64,000 nt of DNA from Sphingomonas metalli (GTDB taxonomy: Bacteria > Pseudomonadota > Alphaproteobacteria > Sphingomonadales > Sphingomonadaceae): NCBI RefSeq assembly GCF_014641735.1, contig NZ_BMIH01000005.1, positions 186,001 to 250,000 of the forward strand, given 5' to 3'. Numbering within the stretch: position 1 is the stretch's first letter; each line of letters starts with the position of its first letter. Under the pieces are notes generated by a model. The model saw only the letters and a list, made by a program, of their open reading frames with translations, did not search any database and was not told the origin of the DNA. The translations under genes were made by a program, and so were the position numbers. This document shows, in pieces, positions 30,792 to 48,807 of this stretch.

Positions 30792-31434
30792 TCGTCAGCC
30801 GCCCCTGCGCCGGATCGTCGCTCAGGGCGGCGTCCGGCGCGATCGCGCCGCTGTGGAGTAGCCGGCTGCGGTAGAGGACCGCGCGGTTGTACCGCGCCTC
30901 GACCAGTGCGATCCGCTCGAACAGCGGCGTGCTGTCGGCGATATAGGCGGGCGGCGGCGGGGCGGCGGCGAGTTCGTCCCGCAGCGTCTGCCGGTAGCCG
31001 GAGCCGCGTGCCGCATCGACCGTCTCGAACCCGGTCGAACGATGCCGGTAGAAGGCGGTGCCGTCGCCGGGGCCGAGATAATGGACCAGCGCGATCCGGT
31101 CGATGTCCACCGCATCGACATGCGGAATGCGCTGGGCGATCGCCAGACTGTCCGGCGGCTGCGTCACCATCGCGAAGCTGGCATCGAGTAGTGCGAGCTG
31201 CGTACCCTGCGCGAACACCTCGCGTAGCGTCGTGAGAAGCGGCGCGCGCACCGCCGCGAAATAGTCCTGCGGCAAGGCGGCGCGGATGCCGGGATAATGA
31301 TGGCGACCCGGCTCGAAGATCGCGACGCATGCGGCGGTGCGCAGGGCATCGGGATCGGGATGGAATTGGTCTATGATCGCGATCGGCTGGCGCTCGGTGC
31401 CGATGCGGCGCGCGGCGATCGCAGGCGATGTCAT
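30766..31434 (-). CDS. DUF6445-family protein (halogenase-associated)
   Basis: A 222-aa protein without signal peptide. The layout resembles the DUF6445 family, whose members are repeatedly found beside tryptophan-halogenase-like genes in sphingomonads and Caulobacter. Features include AIIDQFHPDPDALR near the N-terminus, LVHYLGPGDGTAFYRHRSTGF in the middle and LYRSRLLHSG near the end. The H..H pattern and overall shape recall 2-oxoglutarate/Fe(II) oxygenase or prolyl-hydroxylase folds, but a complete HxD...H triad is not certain. Its ATG overlaps the halogenase stop (ATGA), so the two are co-translated and probably act together. Confidence 0.7.
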   Translation of the reverse strand: MTSPAIAARRIGTERQPIAIIDQFHPDPDALRTAACVAIFEPGRHHYPGIRAALPQDYFAAVRAPLLTTLREVFAQGTQLALLDASFAMVTQPPDSLAIAQRIPHVDAVDIDRIALVHYLGPGDGTAFYRHRSTGFETVDAARGSGYRQTLRDELAAAPPPPAYIADSTPLFERIALVEARYNRAVLYRSRLLHSGAIAPDAALSDDPAQGRLTITAFLSAR

Positions 31435-32936
31435 GCGGAAGGCCGAAGGATCTGCGCCAGCGCGGCATCGTGAAGCGGCAGGGTCGGCGCGGCGCGCGCA
31501 ATCACGTCGGCGACCTGTTGCACCTGGGCGCGGTTGGTCGCGGGATCGAGCGTGTCGGCGAGCGGGTTATAGCCGCCGGCGAAGACGCCCTGCCCGTTGA
31601 GCACGGCGAGCCAGCTCGCCTCGCGAAACAGCTCGTCCGCGTCGAGGATCAGCCGCCCGGACCGGCGATATTGCGCCTCGCGCGCCGACAGCGTCTCGGG
31701 CAGCGCCATGGTGCGGCACTGCTGCCACAGGGGCTCCGGCCGGCTCTGCGCATGATAATGGAGGATTAGGAAATCCTTGATCCCGTCCATGTCGCGTCCG
31801 AACACGTCGTTGAAGCGATCGGCCAGCGCCGGGTCGCAGTCGGTGTCCGGAAACAGGGTCAGCAGCTTGGTGATGCCGCTCTGGATCAGGTGGATGCTGG
31901 TCGATTCCAGCGGTTCGAGGAAGCCCGAGGACAGGCCGATCGCGACGACGTTGCCCCGCCACGGTCGTCGCCGCGTGCCGGCGGTGAAACGGAGGAAGCG
32001 GGGGTCGGCCAGCGCCTCCCCGTCGAGATGGCCGAGGAGCGTCGCCGCCGCCTCGTCGTCCGAAAGGTGCCGGCTGGCATAGACATAGCCGTTGCCGGTG
32101 CGGTGCTGGAGCGGGATGCGCCACTGCCAGCCCGCCGCCCGGGCCGTCGACCGGGTATAGGGGGTGGTCGTGGCCGCCCGGGCGCAGGGCACGGCGACGG
32201 CGCGGTCACAGGGCAGCCAGTGCGACCAGTCCTCATAGGGTTCACCCATCGCCCCCGCGATCAGGAGGGCGCGAAAGCCCGAGCAGTCGATGAACAGGTC
32301 ACCCGCCAGCCGCTCGCCGCCTTCGGTAGTGAGCGCGGTGACGAAGCCGCGCTCCCCCTCGCGTTCGACATCGCGCAGCCGGCCCTCGACCCGGCGAACG
32401 CCGGCGGCCTCGCTCAGCCCGCGCAGATAGGCGGCGTAGAGGCCGGCATCGAAATGATAGGCGTAGCCGAGCGTCGACAGGATGGACCGTCCCTCGCCTG
32501 CCGGCTTGGCGAAGCGCCCTTCCGCCGCCAGCCGCGTCGCCAGGGACAAAGCGGACAGCGGCAGGTCGAGGCCGTCGGCCCGCGCCTTGAGCCAGCGATG
32601 GTGGAAGGCGACGCCAGGCAGCGTCACGCCATATTGGCCGAAGGGATGGAAGTAGCGATGCCCGGGCGCCGTCCAGTCGACGAACTCGATGCCGAGCTTG
32701 AAGGTTGCCTTGGTCGCCTGCAGGAACGCCGCCTCGTCGAGGCCGATCAGCTCGTTGAACCAGTGGATGGTCGGGATCGTCGCCTCGCCGACGCCGACCG
32801 TGCCGATCTCCTCGGACTCGAGCAGCGTCACCTCTACCGTGCGGCCCAGGCTGCGCGACAGGGCAGCAGCCGTCATCCACCCGGCGGTGCCCCCGCCCAG
32901 AATCACGACCCGCTTGACCCGCTCCGGCGCGCTCAT
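31431..32936 (-). CDS. Flavin-dependent tryptophan-halogenase-family protein (first copy)
   Basis: A 501-aa FADH2-dependent halogenase homologue. The GGGTAGW FAD motif (residues 14-20), the VGEATIP motif, the conserved lysine K80 in TFKLGIEF (equivalent to catalytic Lys79 of PrnA), WQWRIP (the WxWxIP halogenase signature) and PLESTSIHLIQ (catalytic Glu) are all present. In known enzymes reduced flavin and chloride give HOCl that is directed by the lysine. The substrate here is unknown; association with TonB receptors and glycosidases argues against free tryptophan. No flavin reductase is adjacent. AGGGA lies 8 nt before the ATG. Confidence 0.88.
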   Translation of the reverse strand: MSAPERVKRVVILGGGTAGWMTAAALSRSLGRTVEVTLLESEEIGTVGVGEATIPTIHWFNELIGLDEAAFLQATKATFKLGIEFVDWTAPGHRYFHPFGQYGVTLPGVAFHHRWLKARADGLDLPLSALSLATRLAAEGRFAKPAGEGRSILSTLGYAYHFDAGLYAAYLRGLSEAAGVRRVEGRLRDVEREGERGFVTALTTEGGERLAGDLFIDCSGFRALLIAGAMGEPYEDWSHWLPCDRAVAVPCARAATTTPYTRSTARAAGWQWRIPLQHRTGNGYVYASRHLSDDEAAATLLGHLDGEALADPRFLRFTAGTRRRPWRGNVVAIGLSSGFLEPLESTSIHLIQSGITKLLTLFPDTDCDPALADRFNDVFGRDMDGIKDFLILHYHAQSRPEPLWQQCRTMALPETLSAREAQYRRSGRLILDADELFREASWLAVLNGQGVFAGGYNPLADTLDPATNRAQVQQVADVIARAAPTLPLHDAALAQILRPSA

Positions 32937-32978: not shown

Positions 32979-35087
32979 TCATTCCAGCTCCAGGATCACC
33001 TGGTCCACCGCCAGGCTGTCGCCCGTCCGCGCCTCCACCGCCTTGACCGTCCCCGCCTTGCCGGCGCGCAGGATATTCTCCATCTTCATCGCCTCGACCA
33101 CTGCGAGCGGCTGACCGAGCTCAACCCGGTCGCCGGGCGCGACGTCGAGTCGGACGAGCAGGCCCGGCATCGGCGCGATCAGGAAGCGGGAGAGATCGGG
33201 CGGCACCTTCTCGACCAGATGCTGCGCATATGGCGCGATATGCGCCGGCAGGACGCGCGCGACATGCGCCGCCCCGCGGGTGGTCAGGCGGAAGCCGGTG
33301 CGGGTCGGCGCCAGCCTCACGATCAGCGGCGCGCCGCCGACTTCCGCCTCCACCACCCGGTCGCCGGGCGTATATTCGGCCGACAGATCGAGCGGCGTGC
33401 CGTCGATCGCGATCGCGTCCGGCGACACCGAGACGGCGTGGTCGATGCCGCCGATCCGCACCATCCAGTCGGCAGGGGGGCGCAGCCGGCGGCCGAGCTG
33501 GCCATCGATCCGGCGCGCCCGATCGGCCTGCGCGGTGGCGGCGAAGGCGGCGATGCCGGCGAGGTTGCGCAGCAGGTCGGGGCTGGCCGGTGCGCCGTGA
33601 AAGCCGTCCGGATATTCCTCGGCGATGAAGCCGGTGGTCAGCCGCCCTTCGCGGAAGCGCGGATGCTGCATCAGCGCCGACAGGAAGTCGAGGTTGGTGC
33701 CGGGCCCGTCGATCTCGAACGCATCGAGCGCCGCGATCTGCGCATCGATCGCCGCTTCGCGCGTCGGCGCCCAGGTGACGAGCTTGGCGATCATCGGGTC
33801 GTAGAACATGCTGACCTCGCCGCCCTCGGCGACGCCGTCGTCGATGCGAACGATGGACAGGTCCTCCCCGCTCGCGGGGAGGGGGACCGCCGACCGCAGG
33901 TCGGTGGTGGAGGGGGATGGCCGGAAGCGATCCGCCTGTGGCGTCCCCCCTCCACCACCGGCTTCGCCGGCGGTCCCCCTCCCCACGCTGTGGGGAGGAG
34001 CGTATCTGACCAGCCGCCCGATGCTCGGCAGGAAGCCGCGATACGGATCCTCCGCATAGACGCGATTCTCGATCGCCCAGCCATCGATCCGTACATCGTC
34101 CTGGGTGAAGCTCAACGGCTCTCCGGCCGCGACGCGGATCATCTGCTCGACCAGATCGAGCCCGGTGATCTCCTCGGTCACCGGATGCTCCACCTGAAGG
34201 CGGGTGTTCATCTCGAGGAAGTAGAAGCTCTCGCCCGTCGGGTCCGCGCCGGACACGATCAGCTCGACCGTTCCCGCGCTGTAATAGCCGACCGCCCGCG
34301 CCAGCGCGACCGCCTGCTCGCCCATCGCGCGGCGCATCGCCGGGCTGACGAAGGGCGACGGCGCCTCCTCCACCACCTTCTGGTGCCGGCGCTGGATCGA
34401 GCATTCGCGCTCGTTGAGATAGACGATGTTGCCGTGCCGGTCGCCGAGCAGCTGGATCTCGATATGGCGCGGGCTCTCGATGAACTTCTCGATGAAGACG
34501 CGGTCGTCGCCGAAGCTCGCCAGCCCCTCGCGCTTGGTCGCCTCGAAGCCTTCGCGTACGTCGCCCTCGTTCCAGGCGAGCCGCATGCCCTTGCCGCCGC
34601 CGCCGGCGGAGGCCTTCATCATCACCGGAAAGCCGATGTCGGACGCGATCCGCACCGCCTCGTCGGTATCGGCGATCTCGCCCAGATAGCCGGGCACGAC
34701 ATTGACGCCGGCCTGTTTGGCGAGCTTCTTCGATTCGATCTTGTCGCCCATCGCCGCGATCGCCTCCGGCGGCGGGCCGATAAAGGCGATTCCCGCGTCG
34801 GCGCAGGCGCGCGCGAAGCTCTCTCGCTCCGACAGGAAGCCGTAGCCGGGATGGATCGCATCCGCCCCCGTCTCCTTCGCGGCGAGCAGGATCAGCTCGG
34901 CCTTGAGATAGCTGTCCGCCGCCGGCGCCGGTCCCAGCCGCACCGCCTCGTCCGCCATCAGGACATGGGGGCTGCGCGCATCGGCATCCGAATAGACCGC
35001 GACGGTCTTGATGCCCATCCGCTTGGCGGTGCGGAACACCCGGCACGCAATCTCGCCGCGATTGGCGACCAGGATCTTCTTGAACAT
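32979..35087 (-). CDS. pccA: Propionyl-CoA carboxylase alpha subunit (biotin carboxylase + BCCP) with a REP-encoded insert
   Basis: A 702-aa biotin-dependent carboxylase subunit that carboxylates biotin and carries it to the beta subunit, turning propionyl-CoA into methylmalonyl-CoA. The ATP-grasp biotin carboxylase domain fills about residues 1-450 (KILVANRGEIACRV; KASAGGGGKGMR; EMNTRLQVEHPVTE). A middle domain follows, and the C-terminal biotinyl domain has VEAMKMEN with biotinyl K668. Residues about 363-409, rich in Gly, Pro and Ser, are encoded by a 138-bp REP doublet (33862-33999) and interrupt the segment between RLVRYAPP and SIVRIDDGV. Length is otherwise normal. The start at 35087 follows GAGAGG. 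Distal gene of the methylmalonyl operon. Confidence 0.92.
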   Translation of the reverse strand: MFKKILVANRGEIACRVFRTAKRMGIKTVAVYSDADARSPHVLMADEAVRLGPAPAADSYLKAELILLAAKETGADAIHPGYGFLSERESFARACADAGIAFIGPPPEAIAAMGDKIESKKLAKQAGVNVVPGYLGEIADTDEAVRIASDIGFPVMMKASAGGGGKGMRLAWNEGDVREGFEATKREGLASFGDDRVFIEKFIESPRHIEIQLLGDRHGNIVYLNERECSIQRRHQKVVEEAPSPFVSPAMRRAMGEQAVALARAVGYYSAGTVELIVSGADPTGESFYFLEMNTRLQVEHPVTEEITGLDLVEQMIRVAAGEPLSFTQDDVRIDGWAIENRVYAEDPYRGFLPSIGRLVRYAPPHSVGRGTAGEAGGGGGTPQADRFRPSPSTTDLRSAVPLPASGEDLSIVRIDDGVAEGGEVSMFYDPMIAKLVTWAPTREAAIDAQIAALDAFEIDGPGTNLDFLSALMQHPRFREGRLTTGFIAEEYPDGFHGAPASPDLLRNLAGIAAFAATAQADRARRIDGQLGRRLRPPADWMVRIGGIDHAVSVSPDAIAIDGTPLDLSAEYTPGDRVVEAEVGGAPLIVRLAPTRTGFRLTTRGAAHVARVLPAHIAPYAQHLVEKVPPDLSRFLIAPMPGLLVRLDVAPGDRVELGQPLAVVEAMKMENILRAGKAGTVKAVEARTGDSLAVDQVILELE
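33862..33999. repeat. REP doublet inserted in frame inside pccA
   Basis: Two copies of a roughly 55-bp palindromic unit face each other (33862-33916 and 33946-33999) around a 29-bp centre. Each unit has two hairpins: a CTCCCC...GGGGAG stem and a CCG...CGG stem. The stems are identical in the two copies while the loops differ (GCTCGC against ACAGCGT; ACCGCAGGT against GCGAAGC). The doublet is 138 bp, exactly 46 codons, and contains no stop in the pccA frame. This is an intergenic sphingomonad REP type found here within a gene. Confidence 0.85.
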
Positions 35088-35428: not shown

Positions 35429-35644
35429 GCCACGCCTCCAACAGCCCGGTGCGATGTTCCTCGACCATGGCAAGGATGTCATCGATCTCATGCGCGCGGA
35501 ACCCCCGGCTGCGCGCCACTTCCACCGCTTCGAGTCAGACCTTGATCGTCGCCTCGCCCCGATCGACATGACCATGCGGTGGCTCGTTCGGCTCATGGCT
35601 GTAGAAGTAGAAGCGAATGCACCGATCCGCAGGACCGTCGGCAC
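35412..35644 (-). pseudogene. DUF4160-family pseudogene (frameshift plus stop)
   Basis: Reading from a GTG at 35644, PTVLRIGA is the normal DUF4160 start. A missing base then shifts the frame, and the next frame continues RFYFYSHEPNEPPHGHV and GEATIKV, meets a TGA where the family has TGG (Trp), and goes on LEAVEVARSRGFRAHEI to LLEAWHEYLG and a TAG at 35412-35414. Two independent lesions therefore inactivate the gene. It overlaps the bioB stop by one base and precedes its DUF2442 partner. Confidence 0.8.
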
Positions 35645-36645
35645 TATTCCGCCGCCTCGCATACCCTCGCCCGCATCGGCTCCTCGGCCGCCATCGCCTT
35701 CAACCCCAGCTTCGCAAACAGCGCCGCGTCCGCGCTGTCGCCGCGGTTGCCCGTGGTCAGCAGCTTGTCGCCGGTGAAGATCGAGTTCGCGCCGGCCATG
35801 AAACACAGCGCCTGCGTCGCCTCCGACATCGACTCGCGGCCGGCGGACAGGCGGACCATGCTGAGCGGCATCGCGATCCGTGCGACGGCGACGGTGCGGA
35901 CGAATTCGATATCGTCGATCTTGGCGAGCGGCGTATCGGCCAGCATGTCGCCCAGCACCGTGCCCTTCACCGGTACCAGCGCGTTGACCGGCACGCTTTC
36001 AGGGTGGCGCGGCAGCGTCGCGAGCGCGTGGACGAAGCCGACCCGGTCCTCGCGCGTCTCGCCCATCCCGACGATCCCACCGCAGCACACGTTGATCCCG
36101 GCCGCCCGCACCTGCTCCAGCGTGTCGAGCCGCTCGGCAAAGCTGCGCGTGGTGATGACGTCGCCATAACGCTCCGGGGAGGTGTCGATATTGTGGTTGT
36201 AATAGTCGAGGCCCGCCGCCCCTAGCCGCCGTGCCTGATCGGGGGTCAGCATCCCCAGCGTCATGCAGGTTTCCATCCCCATGCCGCGTACGCCCTCGAT
36301 CATCGCGACGATCGCGTCCATGTCGCGATCCTTCGGATTGCGCCACGCCGCGCCCATGCAGAAGCGCTGCGAGCCTGCATCCTTCGCCTCGGCCGCTCGC
36401 TGGAGCACCGCCTGCACGTCCATCAGCTTGGTCGCCTTCACCCCGCTATCGGCATGGACCGACTGCGAGCAATAGCCGCAATCCTCCGGGCAGCCGCCGG
36501 TCTTGATCGACAGTAGCGTGCACAGCTGCACCTCGCCGACCGCATGATGGGCGCGATGCACGGTCTGCGCCTGATACATCAGTTCGTCGAAGGGCAAGTC
36601 GAACAATACGGCGATCTCGTCGCGGGTCCAGTCGGTACGGATCAT
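35644..36645 (-). CDS. bioB: Biotin synthase BioB
   Basis: A 333-aa radical SAM enzyme that inserts sulfur into dethiobiotin. The radical SAM cluster motif C52-P-E-D-C56-G-Y-C59 is intact, [10 protein letters not shown] and the [2Fe-2S] region ([17 protein letters not shown]) match BioB, and the length is normal. Its ATG overlaps the mutase stop (ATGA), so it is co-translated with methylmalonyl-CoA mutase. Placing the last biotin step in this operon supplies cofactor for the carboxylase made from the same transcript. No other bio genes are in the window. Confidence 0.95.
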
Positions 36646-38882
36646 TCGGCGGCGTCCTGTGTCTCTTCGGCCTCGGAGGGCATGTTGTGGCCGAGCAGCC
36701 GTAGAACGTCTTCGGCCGCGGCGATCAAGTTGGTTCCCGGCCCGAAGATCGCCTGCACGCCCGCGTCGCGCAGCGCCTGATAGTCCTGCGCGGGGATCAC
36801 GCCGCCGGCGATCACCTTGATATCGGCGCGGCCGGCGTCGCGCAGATGACCGATCAGTTCGGGAATCAGCGTCTTGTGTCCGGCCGCGAGGCTCGACGCG
36901 CCGACCACGTCGACGTCCCGTGCCAGCGCCAGTTCGGCGGCCTCTGCGGGCGTCTGGAACAGCGGCCCCGGCACCACCTCGAAACCCAGATCGCCGAACA
37001 TACTGCTGACGAGGTTCGCGCCGCGGTCATGCCCGTCCTGCCCCATCTTGGCGACGAGCATGCGCGGACGGCGGCCGAGCCGGCGTTGGGTCGCCTCGAC
37101 CCCACGGCGCAGCCGGTCCCAGCGCGCATCGTCGCGATAGGCACCGCCATAGACGCCGCTGACCGGCGTCGGCTGTGTGCCGTAGCGCCCGAAGGCGACC
37201 TCCATCGCGGCCGAAATCTCGCCCAGCGAGGCGCGGGCCCGCGCGCAGTCGACCGCGAGAGCGAGGAGGTTGCTGTCCATGTCACCGCCTGACGGGCGAC
37301 CCGCCGCCTCGCGCAGCCGCGCCAGCGCCTTCTGGCACGCCGCCTCGTCGCGGGTCTCGCGCATCCGCTTCAGCCGCGCGACCTGCGCCTCGCGCACCGC
37401 ATGGTTGTCGACAGCGAGGATGTCGATCGGATCCTCGTCCTTCAGCCGGTATTTGTTGACGCCGACGATCACGTCCTCGCCACGGTCGACCCGCGCCTGC
37501 CGCGCCGCGGCGGCTTCCTCGATCATCGCCTTGGGCCAGCCCTGGGCGACCGCCGCCGCCATGCCGCCCTCCGCCTCGACGCGTTCGATGATCGCCCACG
37601 CCTCGTCCACGAGCTGTTTGGTCAGCGCCTCCACATAGTAGCTGCCGCCGAGCGGATCGACGACCTTCGTCATCCCCGTCTCTTCCTGCAACACGATCTG
37701 CGTGTTGCGGGCGATCCGCGCGGAGAAGTCGGTCGGGAGCGCGATCGCCTCGTCCAGGGCGTTGGTATGGAGCGACTGGGTGCCCCCCAGCATTGCCGCC
37801 ATCGCCTCGATCGTGGTGCGGATGACGTTGTTGTACGGGTCCTGCTCCTGCAGCGACACGCCGGACGTCTGGCAATGGGTGCGCAGCATCTTCGACCGCT
37901 CGTCCCTGGCGCCGAGATCGGTCATCACCCGGTGCCACAGCACGCGCGCCGCGCGCAGCTTGGCGACCTCCATGAAGAAGTTCATGCCGATCGCGAAGAA
38001 GAAGGACAGGCGGCCCGCGAACCGGTCGATATCCAGCCCCGCCGCCATCGCCGCGCGCGCATATTCGCGCCCGTCGGCGATGGTGAAGGCCAGTTCCTGC
38101 ACCTGCGTCGCCCCGGCTTCCTGCATGTGATAGCCGCTGATCGAGATGCTGTTGAACTTCGGCATCTCGGCCGAGGTATAGGCGATGATGTCCGCGATGA
38201 TCCGCATCGAGGGTTCGGGCGGATAGATGTACGTGTTGCGGACCATGAACTCCTTGAGGATGTCGTTCTGGATGGTCCCGTCGAGCTGATGCCGTGCGAC
38301 GCCCTGCTCCTCGCCCGCGACGATGAAGAAGGCGAGGATCGGGATCACCGCGCCGTTCATCGTCATGCTGACGCTCATCTCGCCGAGCGGGATGCCGTCG
38401 AACAGGATCTTCATGTCCTCGACACTGTCGATCGCCACGCCCGCCTTGCCGACATCGCCGACCACGCGCGGGTGGTCGCTGTCATAGCCGCGATGGGTGG
38501 CGAGATCGAAGGCGACGCTCAAACCCTTCTGCCCTGCGGCGAGGTTGCGGCGGTAGAAGGCGTTCGACTCCTCGGCGGTCGAGAAGCCCGCATATTGGCG
38601 GATCGTCCAGGGCCGGCCCGCGTACATCGACGCGCGCACGCCGCGGGTGAAAGGTGCGAAGCCCGGCAGGCCGGGGTCCCAATCGGCGACATCCTCGGCG
38701 GTGTAGAGAGGCTTGACCGTGATCCCCTCGGGCGTCTGCCAGTCGAGGTCGCGGCCCTTCACCTCCTTCGTGGCGGCGGCCTGCCAGTCGGCGAGCGTCG
38801 GGCGGGATGTCGGCTCCGGCTGGGGCGGCGCGGACGGCACAGCGCCGGCATCCTCGCCGAGGTTGCGTTCGATCTCGGCCAT
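36642..38882 (-). CDS. scpA: Methylmalonyl-CoA mutase
   Basis: A 746-aa adenosylcobalamin-dependent mutase converting (R)-methylmalonyl-CoA to succinyl-CoA. The large catalytic barrel has [34 protein letters not shown] and [12 protein letters not shown], and the C-terminal B12-binding domain has MGQDGHDRG (cobalt-ligand His near residue 617). The single-chain form of about 710-750 residues is normal for alphaproteobacteria. It follows the epimerase gene after a REP doublet and overlaps bioB at its end. Confidence 0.96.
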
Positions 38883-47310: not shown

Positions 47311-48807
47311 TCAGCCGGTCGCGCGGCGCGGCCCCTGCAGGACGTCGGCATGGCGCGGCATCCGTTCCACACCACGGCGGATCATCTCGCCCATCCGCCG
47401 CAGCTGCTCGCGCATCGTCGCTTCGGGAAAGCCGTCCGCCTGGCCGTCATAGCCGCGCGGGACGAGCCCCTGGCCCAGCATCACCGCGGCCCAGCTCGTA
47501 TCGGTGAACAGCTCGCCCGGCTCCGGCATGATCCGGCCGTTGGCGGCGAACAGCGCCATGCGCTGCGCCAGCGTGTCCGGCACGGGCATTGCCGCCGCCA
47601 TCCGCCAGAAGGCCGTGTCGCGCCGCAACGTCTGCTTGTAGTGAAGGATCACGAAGTCGCGCACCTGCTCGAAATCGCGCTGCATCAGCCGGTTGTACTC
47701 GGCCACCTCCGCCGGCACGATCGCGTCGCCGGGAAACAGCGCCATCAGAGTCTGCACGCCCTGCTGCACCAGATGGATCGACGTCGATTCGAGCGGCTCG
47801 ATGAAGCCGGCGGCAAGGCCCAACGCCACGACATTGTGGTTCCAGGCGCGCCGCCGCCGCCCGGTAGTGAAGCGCAGCCGGCGCGATGCCGCCAGCGCGG
47901 GCGCGTCGAGACCGGCGAGAAGCTGCGCCTCGGCGGCATCGTCGTCGAGGAAACGGCTGCAATAGACATGCCCGTTGCCGGTGCGGTGCTGGAGCGGGAT
48001 GCGCCAGCGCCACCCCGCCTCTCCCGCAGTCGAGCGGGTATAGGGGGTCGGCGGTCCGGCCGGGGCACTGGGTACCGCGATCGCGCGGTCCATCGGCAGC
48101 CAGTGCGACCAGTCCTCATAGCCCGTGCCCAGCGCCTCCTCGATCAGCAGCCCGCGAAAACCCGAACAGTCGAGGAACAGATCACCCGCAAGGCTGCGCC
48201 CGTCGGAGAGCCGGACACGGGCGACGTCGCCGCTCTCCCCGTCGCGCTCGACCGCGACGATCCGCCCCTCGATCCGGACAGCGCCCTCAGCCTGCGCGCG
48301 CTCCGCAAGGAAGGCAGCGTAGAGGCTGGCGTCGAAATGGAGGGCATAGGCCATCTTCGACAGGAGGTTGCGTGGATCCTCGGCCGGGCGCGCGAAGCGG
48401 CCGGCATAGGCGGCAGCCGTCGGCAGCGAATAGTCGGCCAGCTCGCCCTCGCGCAGGCGCAGCCAGTGATGGTGGAAGGCCAGGCCGCCGATATCGGCGC
48501 CATAGCGACCGAACGGGTGGAAATAGCGCGTCCCGATCTCGCCCCAGTCGCGGAACTCGATGCCCAGCTTGTACGTGCCCTGGGTACGGTGGATCAGCTC
48601 GTCCTCGTCGATGCCGAGCAGGCGATTGAAGTCCAGGATCGGTGGAATCGTCGCCTCCCCCACTCCGACCGTGCCGATCTCCGCGGATTCGATCAGCGTG
48701 ACGTGGAGGCGCTCAGGTGGAAACCGGCTGGCCAGCATCGCTGCCGCCATCCAGCCCGCGGTGCCGCCACCGACCACGACCACGTCCCGGATGGACTTGT
48801 CTGTCAC
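47311..48807 (-). CDS. Flavin-dependent tryptophan-halogenase-family protein (second copy)
   Basis: A 498-aa FADH2-dependent halogenase homologue, clearly related to the copy at 31431. GGGTAGW (residues 13-19), VGEATIP, K80 in TYKLGIEF, WRWRIP and PLESTSIHLVQ are all conserved, so the active site looks complete. The GTG start at 48807 is supported by AAGGGAGAC upstream. There is no DUF6445 partner here. It follows the second TonB receptor in the same direction, separated by a terminator and a REP doublet. Confidence 0.88.
   Translation of the reverse strand: MTDKSIRDVVVVGGGTAGWMAAAMLASRFPPERLHVTLIESAEIGTVGVGEATIPPILDFNRLLGIDEDELIHRTQGTYKLGIEFRDWGEIGTRYFHPFGRYGADIGGLAFHHHWLRLREGELADYSLPTAAAYAGRFARPAEDPRNLLSKMAYALHFDASLYAAFLAERAQAEGAVRIEGRIVAVERDGESGDVARVRLSDGRSLAGDLFLDCSGFRGLLIEEALGTGYEDWSHWLPMDRAIAVPSAPAGPPTPYTRSTAGEAGWRWRIPLQHRTGNGHVYCSRFLDDDAAEAQLLAGLDAPALAASRRLRFTTGRRRRAWNHNVVALGLAAGFIEPLESTSIHLVQQGVQTLMALFPGDAIVPAEVAEYNRLMQRDFEQVRDFVILHYKQTLRRDTAFWRMAAAMPVPDTLAQRMALFAANGRIMPEPGELFTDTSWAAVMLGQGLVPRGYDGQADGFPEATMREQLRRMGEMIRRGVERMPRHADVLQGPRRATG

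Follow-up and report, generated by a model that had tools for sequence, protein, structure and literature searches.

A surface loop of the propionyl-CoA carboxylase alpha subunit (PccA) in Sphingomonas has probably been colonised repeatedly by palindromic repeats of different families that are resident in the host genomes. The case from which this reading is drawn lies in a 64,000-nucleotide stretch of Sphingomonas metalli DNA (the window), part of contig 5 of a genome of 3.86 Mb in 21 contigs, where an interspersed palindromic repeat, here called family A, lies within pccA. Within the biotin-carboxylase domain of PccA, a hairpin loop of the C-terminal portion would accept long inserts, and palindromic repeats of different families resident in sphingomonads would insert there over and over. 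Inserts that keep the frame would survive as a disordered loop, which we infer to be translated and nearly neutral. They would then be inherited and diverge, be replaced, or collapse through an in-frame deletion between their terminal hairpins.

The pccA gene of S. metalli is complete and encodes the domains Biotin_carb_N, CPSase_L_D2, Biotin_carb_C, PCC_BT, and Biotin_lipoyl; among solved chains the nearest to it is 3n6r_A, also a propionyl-CoA carboxylase alpha subunit. The Biotin_carb_C match is split into two stretches, the best of which begins at residue 411, just past the insert. The original prediction of an exact 138-bp palindromic repeat in frame in an intact pccA is confirmed, as the palindrome occupies nucleotides 3-140 of the loop, from codon 363 to codon 409, and reaches a self-reverse-complement score of 54. 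A maximum of 26 among 100 codon shuffles rules out a chance palindrome. The RNA fold of the insert has an energy of -118.1 kcal/mol (z -10.6), equalled by none of 200 shuffles. The family A unit ends in TCCTCC and has terminal inverted repeats, and its second terminal hairpin is self-complementary, so that it is both an inverted and a direct repeat of the first (Table 1). In the AlphaFold2 model (mean pLDDT 86.6, 45 sequences) PccA is ordered nearly everywhere except in this loop, residues 371-407 being the sole stretch of at least three residues with pLDDT below 50, and the insert is thus predicted to be disordered. Misassembly, which had been named as a possible refutation, is unlikely as far as copy divergence tells, because no other full-length copy is near-identical and the pccA copy lies inside a 281-kb contig.

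Table 1. Features of pccA and its palindromic insert, in window coordinates
Feature	Position	Strand	Description and basis
pccA (propionyl-CoA carboxylase alpha subunit)	32982..35087	-	702 codons; stop at 32979-32981
Family A palindromic repeat	33862..33999	-	138 bp, in frame, encodes residues 363-409
Terminal hairpin 1	33862..33882		TCCTCCCC-n-GGGGAGG; sequence and alignment of 19 copies
Codons 371-407 (pLDDT <50)	33867..33977	-	AlphaFold2 model; flanked by strands 361-363 and 412-417
Inner arm GGTGGTGGAGGGGG	33903..33916		Sequence, RNA fold, copy alignment
Inner-arm partner	33945..33959		Sequence, RNA fold, copy alignment
Terminal hairpin 2	33978..33999		Sequence and alignment of 19 copies

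Beside pccA lie two ORFs (35644-36645 and 36642-38882) that look biotin synthase- and methylmalonyl-CoA mutase-like, and together with pccA they plausibly form a propionate gene cluster. Elsewhere in the window, stretches at 31431-32936 and about 47700-48700 are 69-73% identical to each other; the first ORF of this pair is presumably a tryptophan-halogenase-type flavoprotein.

Family A gave 66 matches on both strands of the S. metalli genome, corresponding to at least 34 distinct places with pccA included, a lower bound since 40 of 88 first-look candidates were scored. The pccA copy is at best 86% identical to another copy over the full length, with a 41-nt piece reaching 95%. Among 19 full-length copies (that of pccA and 18 others) sequence conservation is seen in the outer arms, while the inner hairpin varies, occurring in 12 distinct forms and being fully paired in 16 of the 18 copies where it was found; one of the two non-pairing cases is probably a parsing slip. 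The expectation that stems are conserved while loops vary is therefore only partly right. The insert is indeed free of stops, as had been pointed out, but this is unremarkable, for each of the 19 copies, that of pccA among them, has 5 or 6 open frames out of six. Open frames being the default for family A, they were rejected as evidence of selection. One copy each of nine other families is open in 2 to 5 frames. The copy length is divisible by 3 in eight of the 19.

The contexts of the 33 other family A places were taken as 32 loci, with intragenic status judged by codon-position G+C. The proposed search for the family in coding genes yielded two places inside conserved genes with coding sequence on both sides. 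One is in truB (tRNA pseudouridine synthase B), immediately behind the TruB_N domain, and the other is a partial element in ligD (L222:799-3066), in the linker between the phosphoesterase and ligase domains. The remaining 31 lie between genes or reach the end of one, with some ambiguity for a few close to ORF ends (e.g., L227). REPINs, or REP doublets, consist of two inverted hairpins and a spacer, are mostly intergenic, occur in tens of copies, and are mobilised by RAYTs. Family A resembles them as a set of interspersed inverted hairpin doublets, mostly intergenic, but the S. metalli genome has no match to a RAYT-type Y1 transposase (Y1_Tnp), and such a match was seen in one of 11 genomes tested. 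The idea that a Y1 transposase of its own genome mobilises family A was accordingly rejected. MITEs are marked by terminal inverted repeats together with a target-site duplication; terminal inverted repeats were seen in family A, and no unambiguous empty site that could reveal a duplication was obtained.

All 151 Sphingomonas genomes searched have a PccA match at E 1e-100 or better, a search in which biotin-carboxylase paralogues match too. The loop was parsed in 146 genomes, one locus each even in G025 and G111, which have two long PccA matches; five genomes with weaker matches (G007, G035, G051, G084, and G107) were left out. The proposed comparison of relatives for presence or absence shows a long loop (30-79 aa; cut-off 28) in 62 of the 146 and a shorter one in 84. 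Counted as short are nine remnant-like loops below 28 aa (L064, L068, L239, L240, L249, and L256; less surely L232, L250, and L254), six of which bear a family label in the PccA tree. Self-complementarity exceeds that of all 200 codon shuffles in 49 of the 62 long loops versus two of the 84 short ones, both remnant-like. Four of the 13 long loops that fail to beat all shuffles (L017, L051, L055, and L056) belong to no family.

The other 58 long loops fall into ten palindromic families, recognised by eye through motifs in peptide and DNA (A, 7 loops; B, 7; C, 11; D, 4; E, 6; F, 7; G, 5; H, 7; I, 2; J, 2), with weak assignments for L007, L013, L014, L032, L035, L043, L048, and L049. Families F, G, and H are similar and may be one superfamily, which would give eight families. 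Single-linkage clustering of loop DNA was tried and left unused for defining families because it lumped 53 loops together, in part on account of the flanks they share. Each of the families A-J is interspersed in its host genome, as seen when one representative per family was used as a query against the genome it came from. CGTC lies near the outer ends of families B, D, and E, which come from other species. Judged from these motifs, the long loops do not descend from a single element but belong to several families. On a PccA tree built without the loop (144 rows, omitting L061 and L286), no fewer than 47 changes are required to account for the family labels. As both the gene tree and the labels are imperfect, and a family A junction that recurs in separate parts of the tree may stem from a single old insertion, eight events, the number of families, can safely be taken as the minimum.

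The unassigned loop of L055 and L056 is rich in His, Cys, Gly, and Pro and is not significantly palindromic. Its protein sequence is identical in the two genomes despite 8 synonymous differences, and the loop is possibly functional, even metal-binding.

Occupancy of the pccA loop follows the repeats resident in the genome. Family C matches occur in 66 of 151 genomes overall and in 10 of the 11 with C in pccA (Fisher p 0.001, kinship ignored); each of these ten hosts has at least 3 matches, so the signal does not come from the pccA copy alone. The exception, G003, whose loop L043 is labelled C, has zero family C matches at E 1e-5, which makes the label or the origin of that loop doubtful. Family D matches occur in 41 of 151 genomes and in all four with D in pccA, at 11-12 each (p 0.005, kinship again ignored). 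Among 46 strong cases the palindrome starts in codon phase 0, 1, and 2 in 17, 15, and 14 cases, with a 5' flank of 0-73 nt. Such use of all phases and spread of start positions point to a tolerant loop rather than to one target nucleotide. Well-preserved family A loops in separate parts of the tree have nearly the same 5' junction, which reflects either one old insertion followed by many losses or a preference for native Pro-Pro codons. The collapse route is suggested by L002, whose 147-nt loop contains two identical 19-nt hairpins (exact direct repeats) 111 bp apart. Deleting the stretch between them would shorten the loop to 36 nt, as long as that of the relative L068. The two loops, differing by 111 nt, are compatible in length with collapse, the order of states aside.

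Similar loops occur beyond the genus, where 232 of 249 genomes in a wider family search have a match. The sample of 26 loci from other genera (30 loci less four of the own genus) was picked by similarity to the loop-bearing protein, and 13 of its loops beat all 200 shuffles, e.g., L173, L176, L180, L186, L196, and L198. Unrelated DNA in the loop of other genera had been named as grounds for refuting the prediction; it is literally present, yet in 13 of the 26 loci the loop is again significantly palindromic, a result that overturns the idea of one domestication event and favours repeated insertion. Loop length also varies without elements, as is seen in ten loci of Rhodobacterales type whose loops measure 28-36 aa and are never palindromic. 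TruB is present in 146 of 151 Sphingomonas genomes. In 80 it aligns through the loop with the element-bearing query; the 66 that do not include some gene fragments at contig ends. Of 38 TruB loops taken from the 80 (30 best and 8 chosen), 33 beat all 200 shuffles; by eye they are mostly of family A type, with F-like (L309), C-like (L318), and other forms. The paralogue MCC-alpha served as a control. Of its 41 parsed loci, 38 have a homologous interval of 46-51 aa, and the other three (68-75 aa), included on account of alignments breaking there, are non-palindromic; the 42 loci tried (30 best matches and 12 chosen) do not sample the 151 genomes at random. In PccA the same interval ranges from 49 aa up to 119 aa across 139 of the 146 rows. 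The native MCC-alpha loop is shorter and may for that reason tolerate less. A C-like insert was seen by eye in the C-terminal half of one MCC-alpha (L365 of G098), away from the homologous loop.

The original prediction spoke of domestication, a word that proves too strong, because nearly every frame of the repeat is open anyway and any benefit would be hypothetical. The loop is predicted to be disordered, and a few relatives have remnant-like loops. A one-time domestication was rejected, since relatives lack the insert or carry unrelated elements. Another explanation, that selection keeps the loop peptide for binding, assembly, or regulation, is very improbable. In its favour, 14 of the 15 compared pairs of relatives with a shared element have a pN lower than pS (pairs overlap; the exception is L022/L029, and L040/L042 and L004/L006 were left out for unequal length), and some constraint, on peptide or palindrome, may thus exist. 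However, all 15 pairs show a higher pN/pS for the loop than for the 300-codon flank, other species carry unrelated sequence at this position, and the loop is missing or reduced in the close relatives L064 and L068, all of which, like the predicted disorder, speaks against a peptide function. Selection could instead act on a stable mid-gene mRNA hairpin that tunes pccA translation or mRNA stability; families would then turn over because any palindrome would serve. The palindromicity of most long loops across differing families and the strong RNA fold agree with this, but the majority of parsed genomes have no long loop, four long loops are not palindromic, remnant-like loops exist, and occupancy tracks resident repeats, so we consider a selected hairpin distinctly unlikely.

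Tolerance alone fails to explain why so many PccA carry a long loop and so many TruB an alignable one. These frequencies, the common family A junction, and the location of nearly all other S. metalli copies outside conserved genes would fit an insertion machinery that prefers the locus by sequence or structure, making pccA and truB true hot spots beyond mere tolerance. Such targeting has, in our estimate, a small chance of being correct, as the insertions use all codon phases and spread positions, ten unrelated families would all need the same target preference, and S. metalli lacks a Y1 transposase match. A broader proposal, unlikely but worth some weight, is that pccA and truB both contain a genuine hot spot for integration within the gene, at which a shared property (a DNA or mRNA hairpin, or locus structure) attracts or retains unrelated palindromes, providing an exchangeable source of new protein segments genus-wide. 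Repeated colonisation of a tolerant loop is the explanation we prefer.

The parallel drawn with Rickettsia palindromic elements (RPEs) is supported by the many places of family A and by precedents in the literature. RPEs are presented in PMC10969869 as elements of about 150 bp in several families, many of them in frame inside ORFs. Like them, the pccA insert is palindromic, within roughly 100-150 bp, and in frame inside a conserved ORF, but it belongs to another organism group, and one PccA loop holds ten families across species. By analogy it may be said to act like an RPE; the likeness is one of behaviour, and the element is not classed as an RPE. The section of PMC3733652 on intragenic REPs (section 15) describes GTAG/CGTC REPs within TruB of S. 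alaskensis, E. litoralis, and S. maltophilia, and, in two Xanthomonas species, distinct REPs that occupy approximately one site of recB; PccA is not named in that section. These REPs resemble the present case in lying inside genes, TruB among them, but neither tag is found at the ends of family A, and the PccA case spans many species and families. REPs in frame, including those in TruB, and Rickettsia RPEs are therefore already known. Neither palindromic repeats in PccA nor the repeated occupation of one enzyme loop by unrelated families, ten in the case of PccA, appeared in the literature searched (titles and abstract openings, with few subscription journals covered).

Selfish repeats thus seem to keep reshaping the same spot of one core metabolic enzyme. 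The PccA loop offers a natural replicate experiment, in which one site meets many unrelated repeat families and appears unfilled, filled, or apparently collapsed among relatives. Such replicates make it possible to test how palindromes affect proteins, how much an enzyme tolerates, and how REPs move without a RAYT.
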